A DNA stretch of 64,000 nt from a virus. A program made the translations under genes and the position numbers. Shown piece after piece: positions 27,792 to 56,759 of the stretch. The notes below the pieces were generated by a model that was not told the DNA's origin, searched no databases, and saw only the letters and a list, made by a program, of their open reading frames with translations. How positions within the stretch are numbered: the first letter of the stretch is position 1; every line of letters begins with the position of its first letter. The stretch covers positions 112,633 to 176,632 of the IMG/VR virus record IMGVR_UViG_3300025435_001056, one strand, 5' to 3'.

Positions 27792-28475
27792 ATGAAACTA
27801 AAAAGTTTTGGATGTAGTTTTATCTTTGGTTCAGAACTGGCCGATGATGGGCATGGTGGACCGTATGCTACGCCTAGTCAGTTGACTTGGCCTGCACATT
27901 TAGCTAGTTATTTAAATCGTCAATACGAATGCTATGCTCGTCCAGGGTCTGGGAATCTACAGATATTAGAAAGTATCTTAAATCAAGCAGCCACCAGTAC
28001 CAGTTCGGATTTATTTGTTATTGGATGGACCTGGATCGATCGATTTGATTACTACCCAACAAATCCCAACACGCCTAGTCGCAGTCCTTGGCGTACTATT
28101 ATGCCGGTAGATACCGATACAGTAGCTCAAGTTTACTATAGAAATCTACATTCAGAATATCGTGACAAACTTGTTTCTTTGGCCAATATCAAATTGGCCA
28201 TTGATACATTACAACAACGACAAATTCCCTTTGTGATGACCTACATGGATCAACTGTTGTTTGATCAGCAGTGGCATATTACCCCGGCTGTGATCGAACT
28301 ACAAACCTATGTGCAACCTTTTATGAAAAATTTTGATGGACAAACATTTTTAGAATGGAGCAGGGCCAATGATTATCCAGAAACTGCGGCTTGGCATCCT
28401 TTAGAAGAAGCACACCGAGCCGCATCTGATTTTATGATTAAAGTTTTTGATAAACAAAATACAGGCGATTGTTAG
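27792..28475 (+). CDS. SGNH-like hydrolase family protein (227 aa)
   Basis: The start MKLKSFGCSFIFGSEL carries a GxS nucleophile motif with serine at residue 9. PGSGNLQI near 53 matches the GxN block, and WHPLEEAH near 208 supplies the C-terminal histidine. The overall plan parallels that of the 22275 protein, including the PGSGN block, so the two are distant paralogues or independent captures. Likely an esterase or acyltransferase. The start at 27792 is preferred over 27786 because 27786 lies in the -10 box. It overlaps the convergent methyltransferase gene by 38 bases. Confidence 0.6.
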   Translation: MKLKSFGCSFIFGSELADDGHGGPYATPSQLTWPAHLASYLNRQYECYARPGSGNLQILESILNQAATSTSSDLFVIGWTWIDRFDYYPTNPNTPSRSPWRTIMPVDTDTVAQVYYRNLHSEYRDKLVSLANIKLAIDTLQQRQIPFVMTYMDQLLFDQQWHITPAVIELQTYVQPFMKNFDGQTFLEWSRANDYPETAAWHPLEEAHRAASDFMIKVFDKQNTGDC

Positions 28476-29166
28476 CATCCTTCTTGAATTCCAATAGTTT
28501 GAGATTAAACAGTTCGGCAAACTCATTTACTAGCTCAAACGACCAGGGAAAAATATCCACATACGGTCCTGTTTTATGGGTCACTCCGGGGTTAGCACGC
28601 AGATAAAAACGTCCACCCGTTTTAAGCAGATCCACGCAGTGTCCAAAACGAGCTTCGATTTCATCTTGGCTGTTAAAATTGATAGATCCCAAGGCCATGA
28701 TCACATCGTACTTGTGCTTTACACGGTATTCGAGAATATCTACCTGATAGTCAGCTGCGTCATTGTAAGGATCAATGCCCACTAAATTTTGAATACGGCC
28801 TTTGAATGGATGATACCCACAGCCCACATCCAGTACAGCTTCGGGATTGAGTTTGTTGATTTCTTCTGCTAGTTGCCAACCAGTGTGATTGTAATCATCC
28901 GTACGCGGTTTCCAAATTTCCCCAAAAAAGCGCAGAATGTAGCGTTCGCTGATGGTGTCTACAATTTTGAGCAACGGGCCGTTGAAGCCGCAGTCTTCCA
29001 ACATGAGTTCAGCTTCTATCGTATCCTTGAACTTGCGATAACGAGCCGGCGTCCAAGGCAGTTGATCTACCTCAGTGTCGACGTCAATAGAAATATTCTT
29101 ATACTTGGGTAAATTAAAAGTATCTTGTAAATTTTTTGTAATTAGGTTAAAAATTTTGGTATTCAT
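28438..29166 (-). CDS. Class I SAM-dependent methyltransferase (242 aa)
   Basis: The SAM-binding motif I is AVLDVGCGYHPF near residue 109, followed by the LVGIDPYND acidic strand and the KYDVIMALGSINF and LLKTGGRFYLRANPG post-motifs. The N-terminal 90 residues form an additional helical domain. The substrate is unknown. It is isolated on the minus strand between plus-strand genes. Confidence 0.8.
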   Translation of the reverse strand: MNTKIFNLITKNLQDTFNLPKYKNISIDVDTEVDQLPWTPARYRKFKDTIEAELMLEDCGFNGPLLKIVDTISERYILRFFGEIWKPRTDDYNHTGWQLAEEINKLNPEAVLDVGCGYHPFKGRIQNLVGIDPYNDAADYQVDILEYRVKHKYDVIMALGSINFNSQDEIEARFGHCVDLLKTGGRFYLRANPGVTHKTGPYVDIFPWSFELVNEFAELFNLKLLEFKKDANNRLYFVYQKL

Positions 29167-29257: not shown

Positions 29258-29953
29258 ATGAACTCAAAAGAATTTGTTGCCAAGATCGTGGCCGATAACC
29301 AAGCCCTGTTTCAAGCAAGCCAGCACAATGTTCGGGCTTACTTTGACAGTAAGCCAGCTCAAGAAGAACTGGTAGAGCACTTTATTGGCCGTATGGTCAA
29401 TGAGCGTATGAACATGGTTGAGATCAGCCAAGCTATTGCTACCATGCCTGCCGATGCAGATCCTGTAGAATTACAGTTGTTGACACAACAGGCTGCCGAC
29501 GAAGCTGTTCATTTCCGTCTTGTTAAAGAAGTTATTGAACACATTCAAGGTGCACCAGTTGATGTAGAAGCCGCCATTGCTCGCGAAGCCGCTAAACCAA
29601 CTGCCAAAGGTGCTGGTTTATTGGCCAAGTACGGTGCAGAGAATGATCGAGTGGCTCTTGCCGCTTATCAGTTGGTTGCCGAAGGTCGCGCCGAAGCTGT
29701 TTGGAACACTATGGCCGAGTGCATTGAAGATGAATTTATTAGTAAAAGTTATGCCAAAATTGCCCGGGATGAAGGTTTCCACAGCAAGATTGGTGCTCGT
29801 AAGCTAGAGCAGTTAGTTACAGATGCAGAAGTTGCTGCTCGAGTTGAAACATTGGTTGCCGCTATGCGTAAAGACTTGTATGAAATTTCATGCCGGAACA
29901 CTGTAGCAGCTGAAGCTGGCAAAGAGCTAGTGGCAGACGCATACGGTTGGTAA
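29258..29953 (+). CDS. Ferritin-like diiron-carboxylate protein (231 aa)
   Basis: Two ExxH motifs occur on predicted helices, E82-AV-H85 (QQAADEAVHFRLVKE) and E172-GF-H175 (RDEGFHSKIGA). Further glutamates E49 and E142 are placed to complete a four-helix diiron site, as in MiaE- or PaaA-type oxygenases. The protein is therefore probably a small diiron oxidase or oxygenase. No exact family can be assigned. It heads the 29258-34462 cassette, with a strong AAGGAG site. The next gene starts one base after its stop. Confidence 0.65.
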   Translation: MNSKEFVAKIVADNQALFQASQHNVRAYFDSKPAQEELVEHFIGRMVNERMNMVEISQAIATMPADADPVELQLLTQQAADEAVHFRLVKEVIEHIQGAPVDVEAAIAREAAKPTAKGAGLLAKYGAENDRVALAAYQLVAEGRAEAVWNTMAECIEDEFISKSYAKIARDEGFHSKIGARKLEQLVTDAEVAARVETLVAAMRKDLYEISCRNTVAAEAGKELVADAYGW

Positions 29954-29954
29954 T

Positions 29955-30515
29955 TTGAAAATAGGACTCACTCAGCGGATCCTAAACTTCAGAGGGCGGG
30001 CGTATGACTCAATTGAGCATGGTTGGTATTCCTACTTGAAAGAGCATACGCTTGTTTTTGTTCCCAATCGATTAGATCAGGATTTTGAATCAGTAGCACA
30101 AGAAGTAGATTGTCTTATTATCACCGGTGGCGATGATCGTTTGATCAGACGCACCACAGAATTACAATTAGCCACAGCAGTAATAAAACAACAAAAACCT
30201 ATTTTGGGTGTATGTCATGGAGCATTTTTGCTGACTGATGTGTTTGGCGGTATAGTCGGTCGTAAAGACGGACATAGAGATGGAATTGAACATGTGGTCC
30301 GGTATTGTGAGCAGGATTATGTGGTCAACAGTTTTCACGGACTTGCAATTGAATCGGCACCACCCACAGCACAAGTACTGGCTCGAGACCCCGATGGCAC
30401 TTGCGAATCCTGGATTGATGGGTTGGTAGCAGCAGTAGTATGGCATCCAGAACGTATGGCAAACCCCTGGTTGCCAACAGAAATACAAAATTTAATATTC
30501 AAGGACAACAAATGA
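29955..30515 (+). CDS. Class I glutamine amidotransferase-like protein (186 aa)
   Basis: The sequence has the class I GATase / peptidase C26 plan: CLIITGGDDRL near 53, the nucleophile elbow PILGVCHGAFLL with C87, VVNSFHGLAI, and the VVWHPERM histidine/glutamate pair at H164 and E166. Members cleave gamma-glutamyl amides or supply ammonia. It uses a TTG start one base after the preceding stop; MKIGLTQRIL is the expected N-terminus. No synthase partner domain is fused. A gamma-glutamyl hydrolase acting on a ligated glutamate is a possibility in view of the RimK-like gene at the left edge, but that is inference. Confidence 0.8.
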   Translation: MKIGLTQRILNFRGRAYDSIEHGWYSYLKEHTLVFVPNRLDQDFESVAQEVDCLIITGGDDRLIRRTTELQLATAVIKQQKPILGVCHGAFLLTDVFGGIVGRKDGHRDGIEHVVRYCEQDYVVNSFHGLAIESAPPTAQVLARDPDGTCESWIDGLVAAVVWHPERMANPWLPTEIQNLIFKDNK

Positions 30516-31486
30516 AAAAATTATTAGCGGTATTATTATTAATCCCAACCCTGGCCATGGCCTGGGAACCTATATATCCAGTTTCTGTAATTGTGGGCAA
30601 CACTCCCGGAGCTGGCAACGAAATTGCCTTTAGAGCCCTGGCAGCTGTTGTGCAAAAAAACAATCCCAAGTTTGTGTATGTGGTCGAAAACAAACCCGGT
30701 GCTGATTCAGTAGTGGCTCAAAATTATTTCCTACAGCAACCAGCCGATGGATACACCATCAATCTACCCAGCCATATGAGTACCTATGTGACTAATGACA
30801 TCTGGGAAGCCAAGATCAAAAAGTTTAACTACGATTCATTCATTGATGTCATGACCATGGGCAAGAGTCCATTGGTCCTGGTTGCCAATGCAAAAAGCAA
30901 GATCAATACTCCGGTTGAATTTATTAGATTAATTGCTACAACTACCCGTCCTATTAATGTTGCGGTAGGCGGTGGTGCTCATAGAACTGCCTACGAATAT
31001 CTTATGATGAAGGCCCATGGCAACGCTGACCTGGTCAAACCTATCAAGTTCAATGGTCCTTTACCGGCAGTGACCAGTGTTGCATCATTTGATACCGCCG
31101 GAGGAACAGAATTTGGTATTATGCCCATTGCTGTGGCTCGGCCATTGGTTGAGGCTGGCAAGGTCAAGCCCATTGGATTTACAGGCACACACCGCATGCC
31201 ACAATATCCCAATGTTCCCTTGTTAAATGAATGGGTTCCCGGTATCAATGTATATGCCGCTTGGTCAATAGAATTACCCAAAGGCACGCCTCAAGAAGTA
31301 GTCGATTGGTATCAGCAGAAGTTTAGTGCGGCTGTACATAGTGCGGAGTATAAAAAGTGGTGCGAACAAAATGTGGTCTTTGTGGATGAGTCTGAACTAA
31401 AGCCAGCTGGACTACGCCGGCACATGGAGGAACTGCGTGCTACATTCTTGCCTGTGTTGAAAACTATTGATTTAAGCAAAGAATGA
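30512..31486 (+). CDS. TctC/Bug-family periplasmic substrate-binding protein (324 aa)
   Basis: Residues 1-17 (MKKLLAVLLLIPTLAMA) are a signal peptide. The mature part matches the tripartite tricarboxylate transporter receptor (Bug) family: PVSVIVGNTPGAGNEIAFRA, VENKPGADSVVAQNYFLQQP ADGYT-like segment, and the C-terminal GTPQEVVDWYQQKF. These bind small carboxylated ligands in the periplasm and are hugely expanded in Betaproteobacteria. No TctA/TctB membrane genes are nearby, so it may feed a host transporter or sequester a ligand. It is joined to both neighbours by ATGA overlaps. Confidence 0.85.
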   Translation: MKKLLAVLLLIPTLAMAWEPIYPVSVIVGNTPGAGNEIAFRALAAVVQKNNPKFVYVVENKPGADSVVAQNYFLQQPADGYTINLPSHMSTYVTNDIWEAKIKKFNYDSFIDVMTMGKSPLVLVANAKSKINTPVEFIRLIATTTRPINVAVGGGAHRTAYEYLMMKAHGNADLVKPIKFNGPLPAVTSVASFDTAGGTEFGIMPIAVARPLVEAGKVKPIGFTGTHRMPQYPNVPLLNEWVPGINVYAAWSIELPKGTPQEVVDWYQQKFSAAVHSAEYKKWCEQNVVFVDESELKPAGLRRHMEELRATFLPVLKTIDLSKE

Positions 31487-32103
31487 AATATATCTTTTGT
31501 GCAGGTGCACCTGGCTCAAAATGGAGCAGTCTAATCAAAAACATCTACTACAGCCCCGATGTGGATCGTTCGGACTATTCGGATGACAGAACCTACTGGC
31601 ACGATGCTCCGGGACAGTTGGAACTCATGCACCTAGGTGCTTATTTTGATCCTGGCATGGAGTTTGGCGACTGGTTTGATCGTTTGGACCAATATACTCG
31701 GGCCGAATGTGAAGCTGAATTTGACCGCCCGTTTTCGGGCACAGGTATTCGTATCATCAAAAGCCATGTGTTTGCACATCACATAGATTTTATCAAACAG
31801 ACCTGGCCTGATTGCCCTGTTATCCTGGCACATCGCAACAATGATGCCGCACTGGGCTGGTGGGTCAAGTGTGGACACTTTAATATTACCTACCCGCTAT
31901 ATGATAAGTACTATCGAGATCTGCGAACCATGGCTGGCATAATTGCCAATCAAAATCAGGATATACAAAAAGCATGGGATCATCACAAGGGTAAAATACC
32001 TCCAAATAATCTTGCGTTGGCAGATATTTTAGGAATCAAATTGCCGCCTGATAATTATTTTCAAGACTACAGACAATCGGACCTAGGAGTAAAGGTAATA
32101 TGA
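31483..32103 (+). CDS. Sulfotransferase-like P-loop protein (206 aa)
   Basis: The N-terminus MKYIFCAGAPGSKWSSLIKN has the strand-GxPGSxxS loop typical of PAPS-dependent sulfotransferases. GIRIIKSHVFAHHIDFI near 90 and CPVILAHRNNDAALGWW near 114 fit the two PAPS-contact blocks (xKSH and HRN/RxP). No cytoplasmic ATP-type Walker B is present. Enzyme activity is inference. The gene is tightly coupled on both sides (ATGA), between the TctC protein and a hydroxylase-like protein, and upstream of an APS kinase-like gene that could produce its cofactor. Confidence 0.65.
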   Translation: MKYIFCAGAPGSKWSSLIKNIYYSPDVDRSDYSDDRTYWHDAPGQLELMHLGAYFDPGMEFGDWFDRLDQYTRAECEAEFDRPFSGTGIRIIKSHVFAHHIDFIKQTWPDCPVILAHRNNDAALGWWVKCGHFNITYPLYDKYYRDLRTMAGIIANQNQDIQKAWDHHKGKIPPNNLALADILGIKLPPDNYFQDYRQSDLGVKVI

Positions 32104-32786
32104 AAAATCAAGCAGATTACGACAGCAGTTGGCAATGGTGTGTGGATCACAGTTGTTATCATTTTGATAACACTCGCATTGACCAGCCTGGTGAATGGTT
32201 TCGGGTCTTGGGTCGTTTTGAAGGCAACTGGACCGACGAAGTGACACAGGCTCAAGGAAAACCCATAACTTGGGCTACCCGTAAATTTTACGGCAATGAC
32301 GATGATACCGTAAGTCCCATGTTAGCTCAAGAAGAAAACGATCTTAGAACTACAGGTGCTCCGGTAGATCTTGAACTGACCGACGCAGTATTTGATATCA
32401 CGCCTTATCCTACCTTGATACGCATGAGTGAATACTTTGGTATAGCAGATGCCAAGATTCGCATGCATTATCAAAGACCAGGGCAGATGTTCAACCTGCA
32501 CATAGACAAATTGCAGGATCGTTGTCCTGAAGATCCTGAACAAGTGATCAGAATGACCATCATGCTAGCCGACTGGGCACCTGGACAATTTTACTCTTAC
32601 GGTACCTGTAACTACTCACACTGGCGTGCCGGAGATGTTCATATCTTTGATTGGGCCAATGTGCCACATGCCACGGCCAATGCCAGTCGCCACATGCGCC
32701 CGGTGCTACAGATCACTGGACTCAAAACCGAACACACTAGAAAATTATTAGAATACGCAGGACCCGAAGCCAGATATCAGGTATGA
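32100..32786 (+). CDS. Aspartyl/asparaginyl hydroxylase-like 2OG-Fe(II) protein (228 aa)
   Basis: The double-stranded beta-helix iron site is visible as H134-I-D136 in NLHIDKLQD and H190 in WANVPHATANAS. R200 (SRHMRPVLQITG) would bind 2-oxoglutarate. The spacing matches aspartyl beta-hydroxylase-type proteins. The N-terminal 110 residues show no known domain. It probably oxidises a protein, peptide or sugar substrate. Starts in ATGA overlap with the sulfotransferase-like gene. Two further 2OG-type genes lie at 55391 and 56094. Confidence 0.75.
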   Translation: MKNQADYDSSWQWCVDHSCYHFDNTRIDQPGEWFRVLGRFEGNWTDEVTQAQGKPITWATRKFYGNDDDTVSPMLAQEENDLRTTGAPVDLELTDAVFDITPYPTLIRMSEYFGIADAKIRMHYQRPGQMFNLHIDKLQDRCPEDPEQVIRMTIMLADWAPGQFYSYGTCNYSHWRAGDVHIFDWANVPHATANASRHMRPVLQITGLKTEHTRKLLEYAGPEARYQV

Positions 32787-33418
32787 CACAAACAAAAAAA
32801 CTGTTGATCCTGACCGGTCCACAGGGTGCAGGCAATCACATGTGGTCAAAAATCTTTGCTCTGTATCCAAGGACCTTTGGCTGGCAGGCTCTGCTGGACA
32901 AATACTGGATTGGGCATGATCAAGAACCCTTTGCTGAATACTGGGAAGATCCTGAAAAATTAAAAGACTTTGATTGGTCTGGTCACGATTACTTTGTGAC
33001 CAGTATCAGCGTGCCTTACATGCTGAATGGTGAACGTACCATACCTCGTTTTGGTCCATTCATACAGGCAGTTCGGGCAGCCGGAGTACAGATCCAATTT
33101 GCCATTCTAGGCCGAGATGCCAACATACTTGAAATGCAAGAAACTCGTGTGCGTGGAGAGCCTACCTTGCATCTAGCTGTTAACGAGCTGGCCAAACTAT
33201 CTGGGCAGATGCCACAATTTCTCAGTTACGAATTGTTGCATTTATATGGCCGTGACTATCTACAACAATTAAATACCATACTCGAGTTTCCTGTGGTTCA
33301 TACAGATCCCAGGATTAACGAAATCATAAAGGAAGACGCAAATACCAAATATTTTCAACCTGTAGAACATCATTGGGTAGACGATTTGGCCAAACATACT
33401 TCAAGGAAATGGCGATGA
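32783..33418 (+). CDS. P-loop protein, possibly sulfotransferase- or kinase-like (211 aa)
   Basis: The N-terminal KKLLILTGPQGAGNHMWSKI has a GxxGxGNHxxxK variant of the P-loop. IQFAILGRDANILEMQETRV near 109-128 resembles a sulfotransferase RD block. Standard Walker A lysine-threonine is absent (NHM replaces GKT), so ordinary ATPase activity is doubtful. The gene is coupled to the hydroxylase-like gene and the APS kinase-like gene by ATGA overlaps. A role in the same pathway is likely from context only. Confidence 0.55.
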   Translation: MTQTKKLLILTGPQGAGNHMWSKIFALYPRTFGWQALLDKYWIGHDQEPFAEYWEDPEKLKDFDWSGHDYFVTSISVPYMLNGERTIPRFGPFIQAVRAAGVQIQFAILGRDANILEMQETRVRGEPTLHLAVNELAKLSGQMPQFLSYELLHLYGRDYLQQLNTILEFPVVHTDPRINEIIKEDANTKYFQPVEHHWVDDLAKHTSRKWR

Positions 33419-34251
33419 CACAACGAATTTTAATCATGGGTTTACCAGGATCGGGCAAAACAACTCTAGCAGGTGTTTTAAAAAAATACTTAGAAGAGCA
33501 TGGCGATATCAACTATACTCGAGCATTAAACGAATGCATCGGACCCGGAGTCATGGTTAATTGGTTCAATGCTGATGATGTCCGTCGCAAGTACAACGAC
33601 TGGGACTTTAGTCAGGATGGTCGCATTCGTCAGAGCCTGCGCATGTTTCAGTTCAGCATGGAGTCCGGAGGCGACTATGTGATCTGTGACTTTGTTGCAC
33701 CCTTAGTAGAACAGCGTAACAACTTTAAGGCTGATTGGACCATCTGGGTAGACACTATCCGTGAAGGACGTTATGCTGATACCAATCGAGCCTTTGTGGA
33801 ACCTGAACAGTACGACTTCCGCATTATCGAGCAGAATGCAGAAAAATGGGCTGAATTTATTGGTGAACACATTGTAGCCAATCGTCGTCGTCCGGTCTTT
33901 GATTGGCAGAAGGAAACTGTACAGATGCTGGGCCGTTGGCAACCCTGGCATGACGGACATCGTGCCCTGTTTGAACGCTTGATTGCTCGCACCGGGCAGG
34001 TAGTAATTCAAATTCGTGATTGCCAGGGCTGGCAAGGTTCGAACCCATTTGAAATAAAAAAAGTTAAAGAATTTATTCGACGCGACCTGGATCCAATCTA
34101 TCAAGGACAATACGAAATACAAGTAGTTCCTAACATTGTACATATTGGATGGGGCCGTGGAGTTGGTTATACGTCGGGCAAAGAAACGTTTGACGAAAGC
34201 ATTACTGACATAAGTGCTACCAAAATTCGTCGAGAAATGGGCCTTGAGTGA
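33415..34251 (+). CDS. APS kinase-like domain fused to a HxGH nucleotidyltransferase (278 aa)
   Basis: Residues 1-160 match the adenylylsulfate kinase (CysC) family: Walker A GLPGSGKT (9-16), FNADDVRRKYNDWDFSQDGR near 57, CDFVAPLVEQRNNF near 100, and IWVDTIREGRYADTNR near 115. Residues about 165-278 form a cytidylyltransferase-type domain with GRWQPWHDGH (173-182) and a C-terminal ISATKIRREM. A kinase plus adenylyltransferase resembles a PAPS synthetase in logic, though the second domain is NMNAT/FAD-synthetase-like in its motif and not classical ATP sulfurylase. The substrate remains open. It overlaps neighbours on both sides. Confidence 0.75.
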   Translation: MTQRILIMGLPGSGKTTLAGVLKKYLEEHGDINYTRALNECIGPGVMVNWFNADDVRRKYNDWDFSQDGRIRQSLRMFQFSMESGGDYVICDFVAPLVEQRNNFKADWTIWVDTIREGRYADTNRAFVEPEQYDFRIIEQNAEKWAEFIGEHIVANRRRPVFDWQKETVQMLGRWQPWHDGHRALFERLIARTGQVVIQIRDCQGWQGSNPFEIKKVKEFIRRDLDPIYQGQYEIQVVPNIVHIGWGRGVGYTSGKETFDESITDISATKIRREMGLE

Positions 34252-34462
34252 TACCGCTTTACAAAGTTTGGTTAAAGCCATCAGTTGGCAAGTAACTGGA
34301 TCCATTGACACTTTTGTTATCAGCTGGTTGATTACTGGTCAGGTGTTACTGGCCAGTGGTATAGCCTTTACTGAAATTATAACCAAGGTCTTTTTGTTTT
34401 GGGCCCACGAGCGAGTATGGAATAAGATTGCGTGGGGTATTGACTTGGTTGACAAAAAATAG
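34244..34462 (+). CDS. DUF2061-family small membrane protein (72 aa)
   Basis: The protein starts at a TTG overlapping the previous stop by eight bases, reading (M)SDTALQSLVKAISWQVTGSI. It contains two hydrophobic helices and ends with KVFLFWAHERVWNKIAWG, the hallmark of DUF2061. The family has no proven function. Its place at the end of the APS-kinase cassette suggests a membrane component, perhaps for substrate entry. An upstream GTG (34214) would run further into the kinase gene. Confidence 0.75.
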   Translation: MSDTALQSLVKAISWQVTGSIDTFVISWLITGQVLLASGIAFTEIITKVFLFWAHERVWNKIAWGIDLVDKK

Positions 34463-55390: not shown

Positions 55391-56101
55391 ATGAAACCAT
55401 ATGTAAAAGAATTCCTTGATACTTACAACGATAAGAATATCTTTGAGTATGCGCCATTGCCCGATGGCGATGTGTGGGCTCAGGCCAATTGGATACTATT
55501 TGAATCCAAAATGCCATGGTTAGAATTGACAGGTATTGATGCACCTTATGCAGAAATGTTGGCCGAAGCACAGGCTCTTAAAGACCTATTTGTGTATCAC
55601 CGTGATGGTGAAGAAGGACACAGTGGGTGGCGTAGTTTGTCTGTACATGGTATCAGTGCTGACAAGACCAATGTGCCTGAAACTTACGGTTTAGATCCTA
55701 ACCAGGTCACTTATCAGTGGACTGAAATACAAGATCGTTGCCCAGTTACAGTTGAATTTTTCAAACAAGTATTTCCTTACAGTCGATATCAAAGATTAAG
55801 ATACATGTTGCTGGAACCCGGCGGATACATTGCACCACACAGTGACAATGTTAAAAATATTCCTGGGGCCGCTGTAAATATTTCATTAAACAATCCTGAG
55901 AATTGTCGGCTGACCAGCACGTTTGGAACCATGCCATTTAGAGATTCAGGTAGTATATTTTTGTTTAACAATCATTATCAACATGCCGTGCATAATGCCA
56001 GCAATACCGATAGATTTCATATGATTGTACATGGAGAATGGCGCAGTCCAGATTGGCAACAACTAGTAGTCAACAGTTATAAAAAGGCCCTAAATGGTTG
56101 A
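55391..56101 (+). CDS. 2OG-Fe(II) aspartyl/asparaginyl hydroxylase-like protein (236 aa)
   Basis: The iron-binding motif is H150-S-D152 in YIAPHSDNVK, with H198/H201 in HYQHAVHNAS and R208 (TDRFHM) for 2-oxoglutarate. The intervening NISLNNPENCRLTSTFGTMP matches the fold of this family. It shares the plan with the 32100 protein and with the next gene. It may hydroxylate a peptide or sugar. The preceding region has no clear promoter, and no ribosome site is strong; an RNA leader may be involved. Confidence 0.75.
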   Translation: MKPYVKEFLDTYNDKNIFEYAPLPDGDVWAQANWILFESKMPWLELTGIDAPYAEMLAEAQALKDLFVYHRDGEEGHSGWRSLSVHGISADKTNVPETYGLDPNQVTYQWTEIQDRCPVTVEFFKQVFPYSRYQRLRYMLLEPGGYIAPHSDNVKNIPGAAVNISLNNPENCRLTSTFGTMPFRDSGSIFLFNNHYQHAVHNASNTDRFHMIVHGEWRSPDWQQLVVNSYKKALNG

Positions 56102-56759
56102 AACTTTTGATAATTTAATTTCTTCTGAACAGTTGTCTTGGTTCCGCAATGACTTTGAACGCATGATTGACGTTGATCCGGTCATGCGTCCATACGATCC
56201 TGCAGATGCCAAACGCATATATGGTGTAGACGATTGCTCGGTGCTGGATCAACGGCACTTGGTACAGGCTGGTACTGAGGCCTATAACATTATGATTGAT
56301 ATTCTTGCACCAGTAATACCTGCTGGCACATTTTTTTACATGGCCTATCAGCGACAATTTTTACCACATCAATTGCATGTGGACGAAGTGTACGAGCATA
56401 CCAATTTAGACTATGCCAAAAGTGCGGTAATTCCCTTGTACGAAAACACCAATAACATTTTTAAAACCATTATTTGGAACAAGGTATTTTTGACCAATAG
56501 CGATCTACACAGTTTTTTCAAAGAGTACATTGCAGATTCTTCAAAATTCCCAACAGTCAGTGATGTCAGTGCCACACAAGATGTTGACCATTGCTGGGGA
56601 TTGCCCAGCATAGTGGATGTCATGTCATTAGATGGCGTATATGATTATCAATTGGGATCTATCGGTATGTTCGATCGTACTCATGTACATTGTTCATCCA
56701 ACTGGCGAAAATATCGTCAGATTGATTACAAAGATATCATTATACTTCACATTGGCTGA
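56094..56759 (+). CDS. 2OG-Fe(II) oxygenase-like protein (221 aa)
   Basis: FLPHQLHVDEVY carries the H95-V-D97 motif. The C-terminal MFDRTHVHCSSNWRKY provides the distal histidine (H197/H199) and the basic 2-oxoglutarate contact (R205). The sequence otherwise differs from the neighbouring hydroxylase, so the pair may act on related substrates in order. It overlaps the previous gene by eight bases and the convergent gene by 13. Confidence 0.7.
   Translation: MVETFDNLISSEQLSWFRNDFERMIDVDPVMRPYDPADAKRIYGVDDCSVLDQRHLVQAGTEAYNIMIDILAPVIPAGTFFYMAYQRQFLPHQLHVDEVYEHTNLDYAKSAVIPLYENTNNIFKTIIWNKVFLTNSDLHSFFKEYIADSSKFPTVSDVSATQDVDHCWGLPSIVDVMSLDGVYDYQLGSIGMFDRTHVHCSSNWRKYRQIDYKDIIILHIG

Follow-up and report, generated by a model that had tools for sequence, protein, structure and literature searches.

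An APS-kinase-like and HxGH nucleotidyltransferase fusion in a phage gene run as a candidate compact PAPS synthetase

The 64,000-nt window analyzed here (positions 112633-176632 of the 176.6-kb IMG/VR virus record IMGVR_UViG_3300025435_001056, from a large freshwater phage) contains a run of eight genes (29258-34462), one of which (33415-34251, plus strand) encodes a fusion of an adenosine 5'-phosphosulfate (APS) kinase-like domain with a nucleotidyltransferase domain carrying an HxGH motif. This raises the question of what the fusion protein makes, and whether its neighbors belong to the same pathway. Based on family relations, gene neighborhoods, and co-occurrence, we consider it probable that the fusion is a compact 3'-phosphoadenosine 5'-phosphosulfate (PAPS) synthetase, in which the HxGH domain represents a new kind of ATP sulfurylase. 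In the proposed mechanism, the C-terminal HxGH domain (~115-130 residues), which resembles nicotinamide mononucleotide adenylyltransferases (NMNATs) and is neither Sat nor CysDN, would adenylate sulfate with ATP to give APS; the N-terminal lidless APS-kinase domain would then phosphorylate the 3'-OH of APS, and the resulting PAPS would pass to phage or host sulfotransferases, possibly those encoded at 31483-32103 and 32783-33418, with the DUF2061 protein serving as an accessory membrane protein. In SAR11 bacteria, the HxGH protein encoded beside aprMBA would convert APS and pyrophosphate to ATP and sulfate, and so carry out the final reaction of sulfite oxidation, which has been missing. The wider picture, in which a further kind of ATP sulfurylase closes SAR11 sulfite oxidation and, combined with a lidless kinase, forms a tiny PAPS synthetase that hundreds of freshwater phages employ, along with sulfotransferases, for sulfating a molecule of the host or the virion, is offered only tentatively.

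Strong but indirect support for this proposal comes from bacterial relatives of the fusion. When one genome per species was scanned, such relatives, encoded either as a fusion or by two genes, turned up in SAR11, SAR86, and Rhodospirillales. The kinase and the HxGH protein of SAR11 and SAR86 are encoded by separate, mostly overlapping genes, and three arrangements were found in SAR11. In subtype B, the genes for a kinase of 164-165 aa and an HxGH protein of 130-131 aa overlap by 8 bases, and the pair lies next to aprA-aprB-aprM-like genes, separated from them by a single small gene, in each of the seven genomes fetched (L234, L235, L236, L241, L248, L249, and L250); the L234 products match AprA (TIGR02061, 5e-298) and AprB (TIGR02060, 2e-57). 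At L251 and L252, an HxGH gene without a detected kinase lies directly 5' of aprM-aprB-aprA on the same strand. For these two arrangements together, apr genes adjoin the HxGH gene or the pair in 9/9 loci fetched, the loci having been chosen as subtype B or HxGH-only and not on account of apr. The aprM arrangement is known from the sat-aprMBA type of sulfite oxidation loci in sulfur oxidizers (PMC2211403), which share aprM-aprB-aprA with L251 and L252; those loci have Sat, whereas L251 and L252 lack it and carry a protein of another HxGH subfamily in its place, directly before aprM. Pelagibacter has AprBA and lacks sat and cysDNCHIJ, and the presence of AprBA without an ATP sulfurylase in SAR11, which are among the most abundant ocean bacteria, is a recognized gap (PMC5069961). 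A 124-residue candidate that lies beside aprMBA and co-occurs with aprA makes this gap testable with one small protein.

Co-occurrence was counted in 58 genomes of the SAR11 order, which are related to one another and of completeness not known. Among the matches listed, the pair (scored as present at E ≤ 1.2e-43; for G084 only the kinase was listed) was found in 40 genomes and aprA over the cut-off in 41, with 39 genomes having both, one the pair only, two aprA only, and 16 neither (indicative p = 3e-11). CysD is present in seven genomes, comprising 0/40 with the pair versus 7/18 without it (indicative p = 1e-4); none of the seven has aprA over the cut-off, and in the five inspected more closely an APS-kinase match of CysNC size takes the place of the pair. 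A search for the known Sat (PF01747), a test able to sink the sulfurylase idea, detected it in 4/58 genomes and in three of those with aprA, and 38/41 aprA genomes have no known sulfurylase. Read most simply, these data mean that APS is a product or a substrate of the HxGH protein; because it adjoins and co-occurs with the APS reductase genes, it could be the ATP sulfurylase that SAR11 seemingly lack. An earlier note on this DNA had suggested that the fusion produces activated sulfate, and this suggestion draws support from the SAR11 neighborhoods, the co-occurrence with aprA, and the exclusion of CysD, all of which lie outside the window.

The two halves of the fusion (residues ~1-160 and ~165-278) differ in how clearly their families can be named. 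APS kinases are the best matches of the kinase half by Pfam (PF01583, 1.2e-6, 29.1 bits with a cut-off of 21.1), NCBIfam (apsK, where it falls far under the cut-off, 20.6 vs 138.7 bits), PDB profile (APS-kinase structures, 2.9e-11), and fold. The AlphaFold model of the fusion is good (predicted local distance difference test, pLDDT, 86.9), and its best PDB fold match is human PAPSS1, with Penicillium APS kinase also matched. The P-loop (G9-T16) is conserved, and D54, R57, F65, and R70 (DGDNxR...GFxxxDR), which we take to be the APS site, are kept in an alignment with the kinases of two CysNC sequences. Judged by its sequence, this half is related to APS kinases and is missing the canonical lid. 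In the HxGH half, the motifs GRWQPWHxGH, R201, NPF, GR(G/D)VGY, and ISATKIR are near-invariant from freshwater phages to SAR11 and SAR86. The archaeal-type NMNAT NadM (MJ0541, 2qjt) shares with this half the GRxQPxHxGH motif and the first ~80 positions, whereas the rest does not align, and the HxGH half is shorter than NadM and has motifs of its own (R201, GRxVGY, and ISATKIR).

Several results weigh against the PAPS synthetase proposal. Pfam and PDB profile searches matched the HxGH half to no ATP sulfurylase, Sat (PF01747) included, and GRWQPWHxGH stands in place of QxRNPxHxxH; nothing in the sequence of this half points to a sulfurylase, and its only significant profile matches are NMNATs (7e-8). 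In the kinase half, the lid segment RDPKGLYKKAR is deleted in all the phage, SAR11, SAR86, and Rhodospirillales proteins aligned. With respect to SAR11, the p-values are indicative only, since the genomes are related; G109 and G123 have aprA without the pair; and in subtype A the two genes are close together but away from apr, among Rieske-type, methyltransferase, 2-oxoglutarate (2OG)-type, enoyl-CoA hydratase-like, DMGDH-like, and methanethiol-oxidase-like genes, a kind of setting also seen in the HxGH-only genome L238. The SAR11 pair does not co-vary with Sulfotransfer_3 (p = 0.38). HIT/Hint proteins are able to act on APS in other organisms, and a HIT-family-like protein encoded next to aprM could thus be a second candidate for APS turnover. 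Finally, a divergent CysD-like gene is present in 3/5 Rhodospirillales genomes with the fusion.

The last of these, as a possible source of APS, bears on the explanation in which the kinase half alone acts on host-made APS while the HxGH half moves a nucleotide elsewhere, so that the phage would only boost PAPS formation from APS, the role that annotation gives to phage cysC. Such a division would also fit the firm relation of one half to APS kinases and the absent relation of the other to sulfurylases, but it appears rather unlikely, given that the HxGH gene precedes aprMBA directly without a kinase in L251 and L252 and that the pair tracks aprA in a group where nearly all aprA genomes are devoid of a known sulfurylase. 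The NMNAT matches suggest instead an enzyme of NAD metabolism, with the HxGH half as an NMNAT and the kinase half as a nicotinamide riboside or related kinase, which by a NadR-like logic would supply the phage with NAD+. At L083:6565-7741 in Stenotrophomonas phage Bhz60, a gene distantly related to the fusion does overlap a NADAR-domain gene by 8 bases, and this branch may have a different, NAD-related role. For the fusion itself we regard the explanation as improbable: the kinase half matches APS kinases and not riboside kinases; the NMNAT alignment covers only the first ~80 positions of the HxGH half, ending near position 81, and full-length NMNAT families score it at 24 bits vs cut-offs of 127 and 181; and the apr linkage and CysD exclusion in SAR11 would be left unexplained. 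Moreover, the SAR11 HxGH protein is not the essential NMNAT, because the pair is absent from 18/58 genomes.

The preferred reading, a PAPS synthetase, concerns one gene, whereas the earlier note had joined all eight into a single sulfonation/oxidation pathway. Its description of the run holds: all eight open reading frames are present and open, with five 4-base ATGA overlaps (each step from the glutamine amidotransferase (GATase) through the TctC, sulfotransferase-like, 2OG, and P-loop genes to the fusion), one 1-base gap (diiron to GATase, the latter starting with TTG), and one 8-base overlap (fusion to DUF2061, provided that DUF2061 begins at TTG 34244). This coupling favors one dedicated pathway, although close ATGA packing alone is ordinary in phage gene runs. 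An IMG/VR scan with the fusion protein gave at least 596 relatives, and in the best 80 of these loci, to which the counts below refer, the complete run occurs only within one phage clade. The same order is found in L017 and L027, and in L046 all but a detectable DUF2061 are present. The members come and go independently: L053 and L054 lack the diiron, GATase, and DUF2061 genes, and other loci of the clade keep less; the P-loop gene is absent from L063; of the run, L067 retains TctC and the fusion alone; and L013 and L072 have only the fusion and a DUF2061 at the same site, between an SGNH-like gene and DnaJ. The diiron and GATase genes occur in 3/80 loci, always together. The remaining loci belong to other phages, whose only common part is the fusion, often with DUF2061 adjoining (directly in 36/80 loci; present in 12/21 dereplicated loci). 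The mobile unit is therefore the fusion, frequently accompanied by DUF2061, and the run of eight genes is not conserved as a system; a single pathway of eight genes is quite improbable. Other neighbors of the phage fusion genes are mixed, and since no common pathway emerged when 94 genes from the surroundings of the fusion in dereplicated phage loci were classified with Pfam, phage neighborhoods alone are uninformative on function.

The joint occurrence of a class I GATase, an APS-kinase-like kinase, and a nucleotidyltransferase in one gene run also recalls the Campylobacter phosphoramidate pathway, reportedly described in work on Cj1415-Cj1418, by whose logic these proteins would provide a 3'-phospho-CDP-amidate donor for the sulfotransferase-like transferases. 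The GATase is optional, occurring only in the few fusion loci that also have the diiron gene, and the idea was dropped for that reason; in addition, the SAR11 pair lies beside apr, with no GATase in the subtype B loci listed. We therefore consider this explanation extremely improbable.

If the fusion supplies PAPS, its use by the neighboring sulfotransferase-like proteins, as the earlier note had suggested for two of them, is only plausible for 31483-32103 and unproven for 32783-33418. The product of 31483-32103 (plus strand), a divergent sulfotransferase-like P-loop protein and candidate PAPS user, matches PF13469 under the cut-off (4.5e-5, 24.3 bits, cut-off 27); 8/9 members of its family match PF13469 at E<0.1, and its model (pLDDT 85.8) has mostly sulfotransferases as best, weak PDB matches (template modeling score about 0.4-0.5). 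A PDB profile search with an alignment of this family found nothing. The 3'-phosphate-binding motif of sulfotransferases is Arg...Ser; in this protein Arg118 is invariant, but position +8 is Trp126. The P-loop protein encoded at 32783-33418 (plus strand), of uncertain kind and perhaps sulfotransferase-like, gives a profile match to sulfotransferases at 61% probability and no Pfam match in seven family members. Genuine sulfotransferases (PF13469, 4e-16 in L050) are encoded within 10 kb of the fusion in 14/80 loci and the window's sulfotransferase-like family in 11/80, either kind thus being found in 25/80 loci (6/21 dereplicated), which are descriptive counts without a background rate. The sulfotransferase profiles used detected no further sulfotransferase in the rest of the phage contig, which is possibly incomplete.

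Data from Rhodospirillales also favor the proposal. The fusion is present in five of 76 genomes from the order to which G001 belongs. Other APS-kinase matches are present in 0/5 of these versus 43/71 of the others (indicative p = 0.013), the next, weaker matches of the kinase-profile search being in frames of CysNC size, and Sat was found in none of the five fusion genomes. In G001, a divergently oriented arylsulfotransferase-type gene (PF14269, 3e-21) lies beside the fusion, and a Sulfotransfer_3 gene (3e-18) follows a few kb farther along; G009 has the same setting by sequence resemblance. A general link between DUF2061 and sulfate activation was sought in Rhodospirillales and not found, DUF2061 being located far from the CysNC/CysD positions. 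A tree of 29 kinase plus HxGH sequences unites the 13 freshwater phage proteins in a single group with full support and puts this group, at moderate support (81/88), with SAR86 and SAR11 subtype B; the Stenotrophomonas phage proteins (33-37% identical) are distant. A natural inference is that the phage fusion arose when two overlapping bacterial genes were joined with their order unchanged.

With respect to known systems, animal PAPSS1/2 and the Aquifex bifunctional SAT/APS kinase likewise combine an APS kinase and a nucleotidyltransferase of the HxGH superfamily in one chain, and the kinase-first order is common to animal PAPSS and the fusion. PAPS synthetases have ~620 residues, however, versus ~278 in the fusion, whose HxGH domain is not PF01747 and whose kinase has lost its lid. 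Since the fusion has an APS-kinase half and no recognized ATP sulfurylase domain, it would work like a PAPS synthetase without being a member of that family. A literature search for a phage PAPS synthetase found none. The earlier statement that no such phage system had been described needs narrowing: phage cysC genes, annotated as APS kinases, have been published from larger freshwater phage genomes as genes of assimilatory sulfate reduction, with transcripts exceeding non-phage ones under some conditions in Rotsee Lake, and the accessible part of that report mentions no second domain (PMC10914622). These genes may belong to the fusion family. Phage cysC in freshwater is already known, and the second domain and its meaning appear to be new. 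If the proposal is true, the phage gene described as "cysC for assimilatory sulfate reduction" would by itself supply PAPS, and therefore point to sulfation rather than cysteine synthesis, which would change the reading of sulfur "auxiliary genes" in freshwater viromes.

Some further SAR11 loci are of interest in their own right. In four of the seven CysD genomes (L237, L242, L244, and L246), CysD-CysNC lies beside or close to the same two flanking genes that border apr and the pair elsewhere, and in three of them DUF2061 follows CysNC by ~50 bases; CysD-CysNC-DUF2061 (L237:3523-8560, L242:1162-7278, and L244:2547-7582) and apr with the pair (L234:4289-9992) thus appear to be swapped at this locus, which also favors the PAPS synthetase reading. 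Three of the four Sat loci resemble surface-polysaccharide regions, in which Sat adjoins a pyruvate-kinase-like gene (L253:4543-8360, L254:5117-7425, and L255:5011-8159); in L253, it is preceded by an APS-kinase-like gene and followed by a sulfotransferase-like one. Sulfotransfer_3 is over the cut-off in 42/58 genomes, many of the matches in frames of 500-600 residues, and as it also occurs in genomes without CysD or Sat, the PAPS source there is unexplained. The HIT-family-like protein mentioned above is encoded before aprM where the HxGH gene does not adjoin aprMBA (L257:5351-5749, L258:9627-10025, L259:9961-10356, and L260:9409-9807). At L104:5980-13322, the pair lies in an organosulfur-rich run with EgtB, EgtD, a methyltransferase, a Rieske oxygenase, a methanethiol-oxidase-like protein, and ferredoxin.

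The remaining genes of the window run are all on the plus strand. Four calls in the run are over the Pfam cut-offs: the APS kinase and, in agreement with their first assignment, the class I GATase (29955-30515; PF07722, 4e-16), the TctC-type solute-binding protein (30512-31486; PF03401, 7e-20; 14/80 loci), and the DUF2061 membrane protein (34244-34462, with a putative start; PF09834, 8e-20). The other two identities are less firm, the ferritin-like/diiron-type protein (29258-29953) having weak Pfam matches to ferritin-like and ribonucleotide reductase families, and the 2OG-Fe(II) oxygenase-like protein (32100-32786) an invariant HxD...H...R motif and no Pfam match. Just upstream, in the same variable region, is a methyltransferase-like gene on the minus strand (28438-29166; weak methyltransferase matches; 14/80 loci). 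DnaJ, ClpB-type, PhoH, clamp-loader-like, and polymerase genes were read from the phage sequences, and a DNA-similarity comparison with phage records gave mainly Clp matches. A second oxygenase pair lies outside the run at 55391-56759, where the gene for an Asp_Arg_Hydrox protein (PF05118, 7e-12) overlaps that for a 221-residue protein without a Pfam match.

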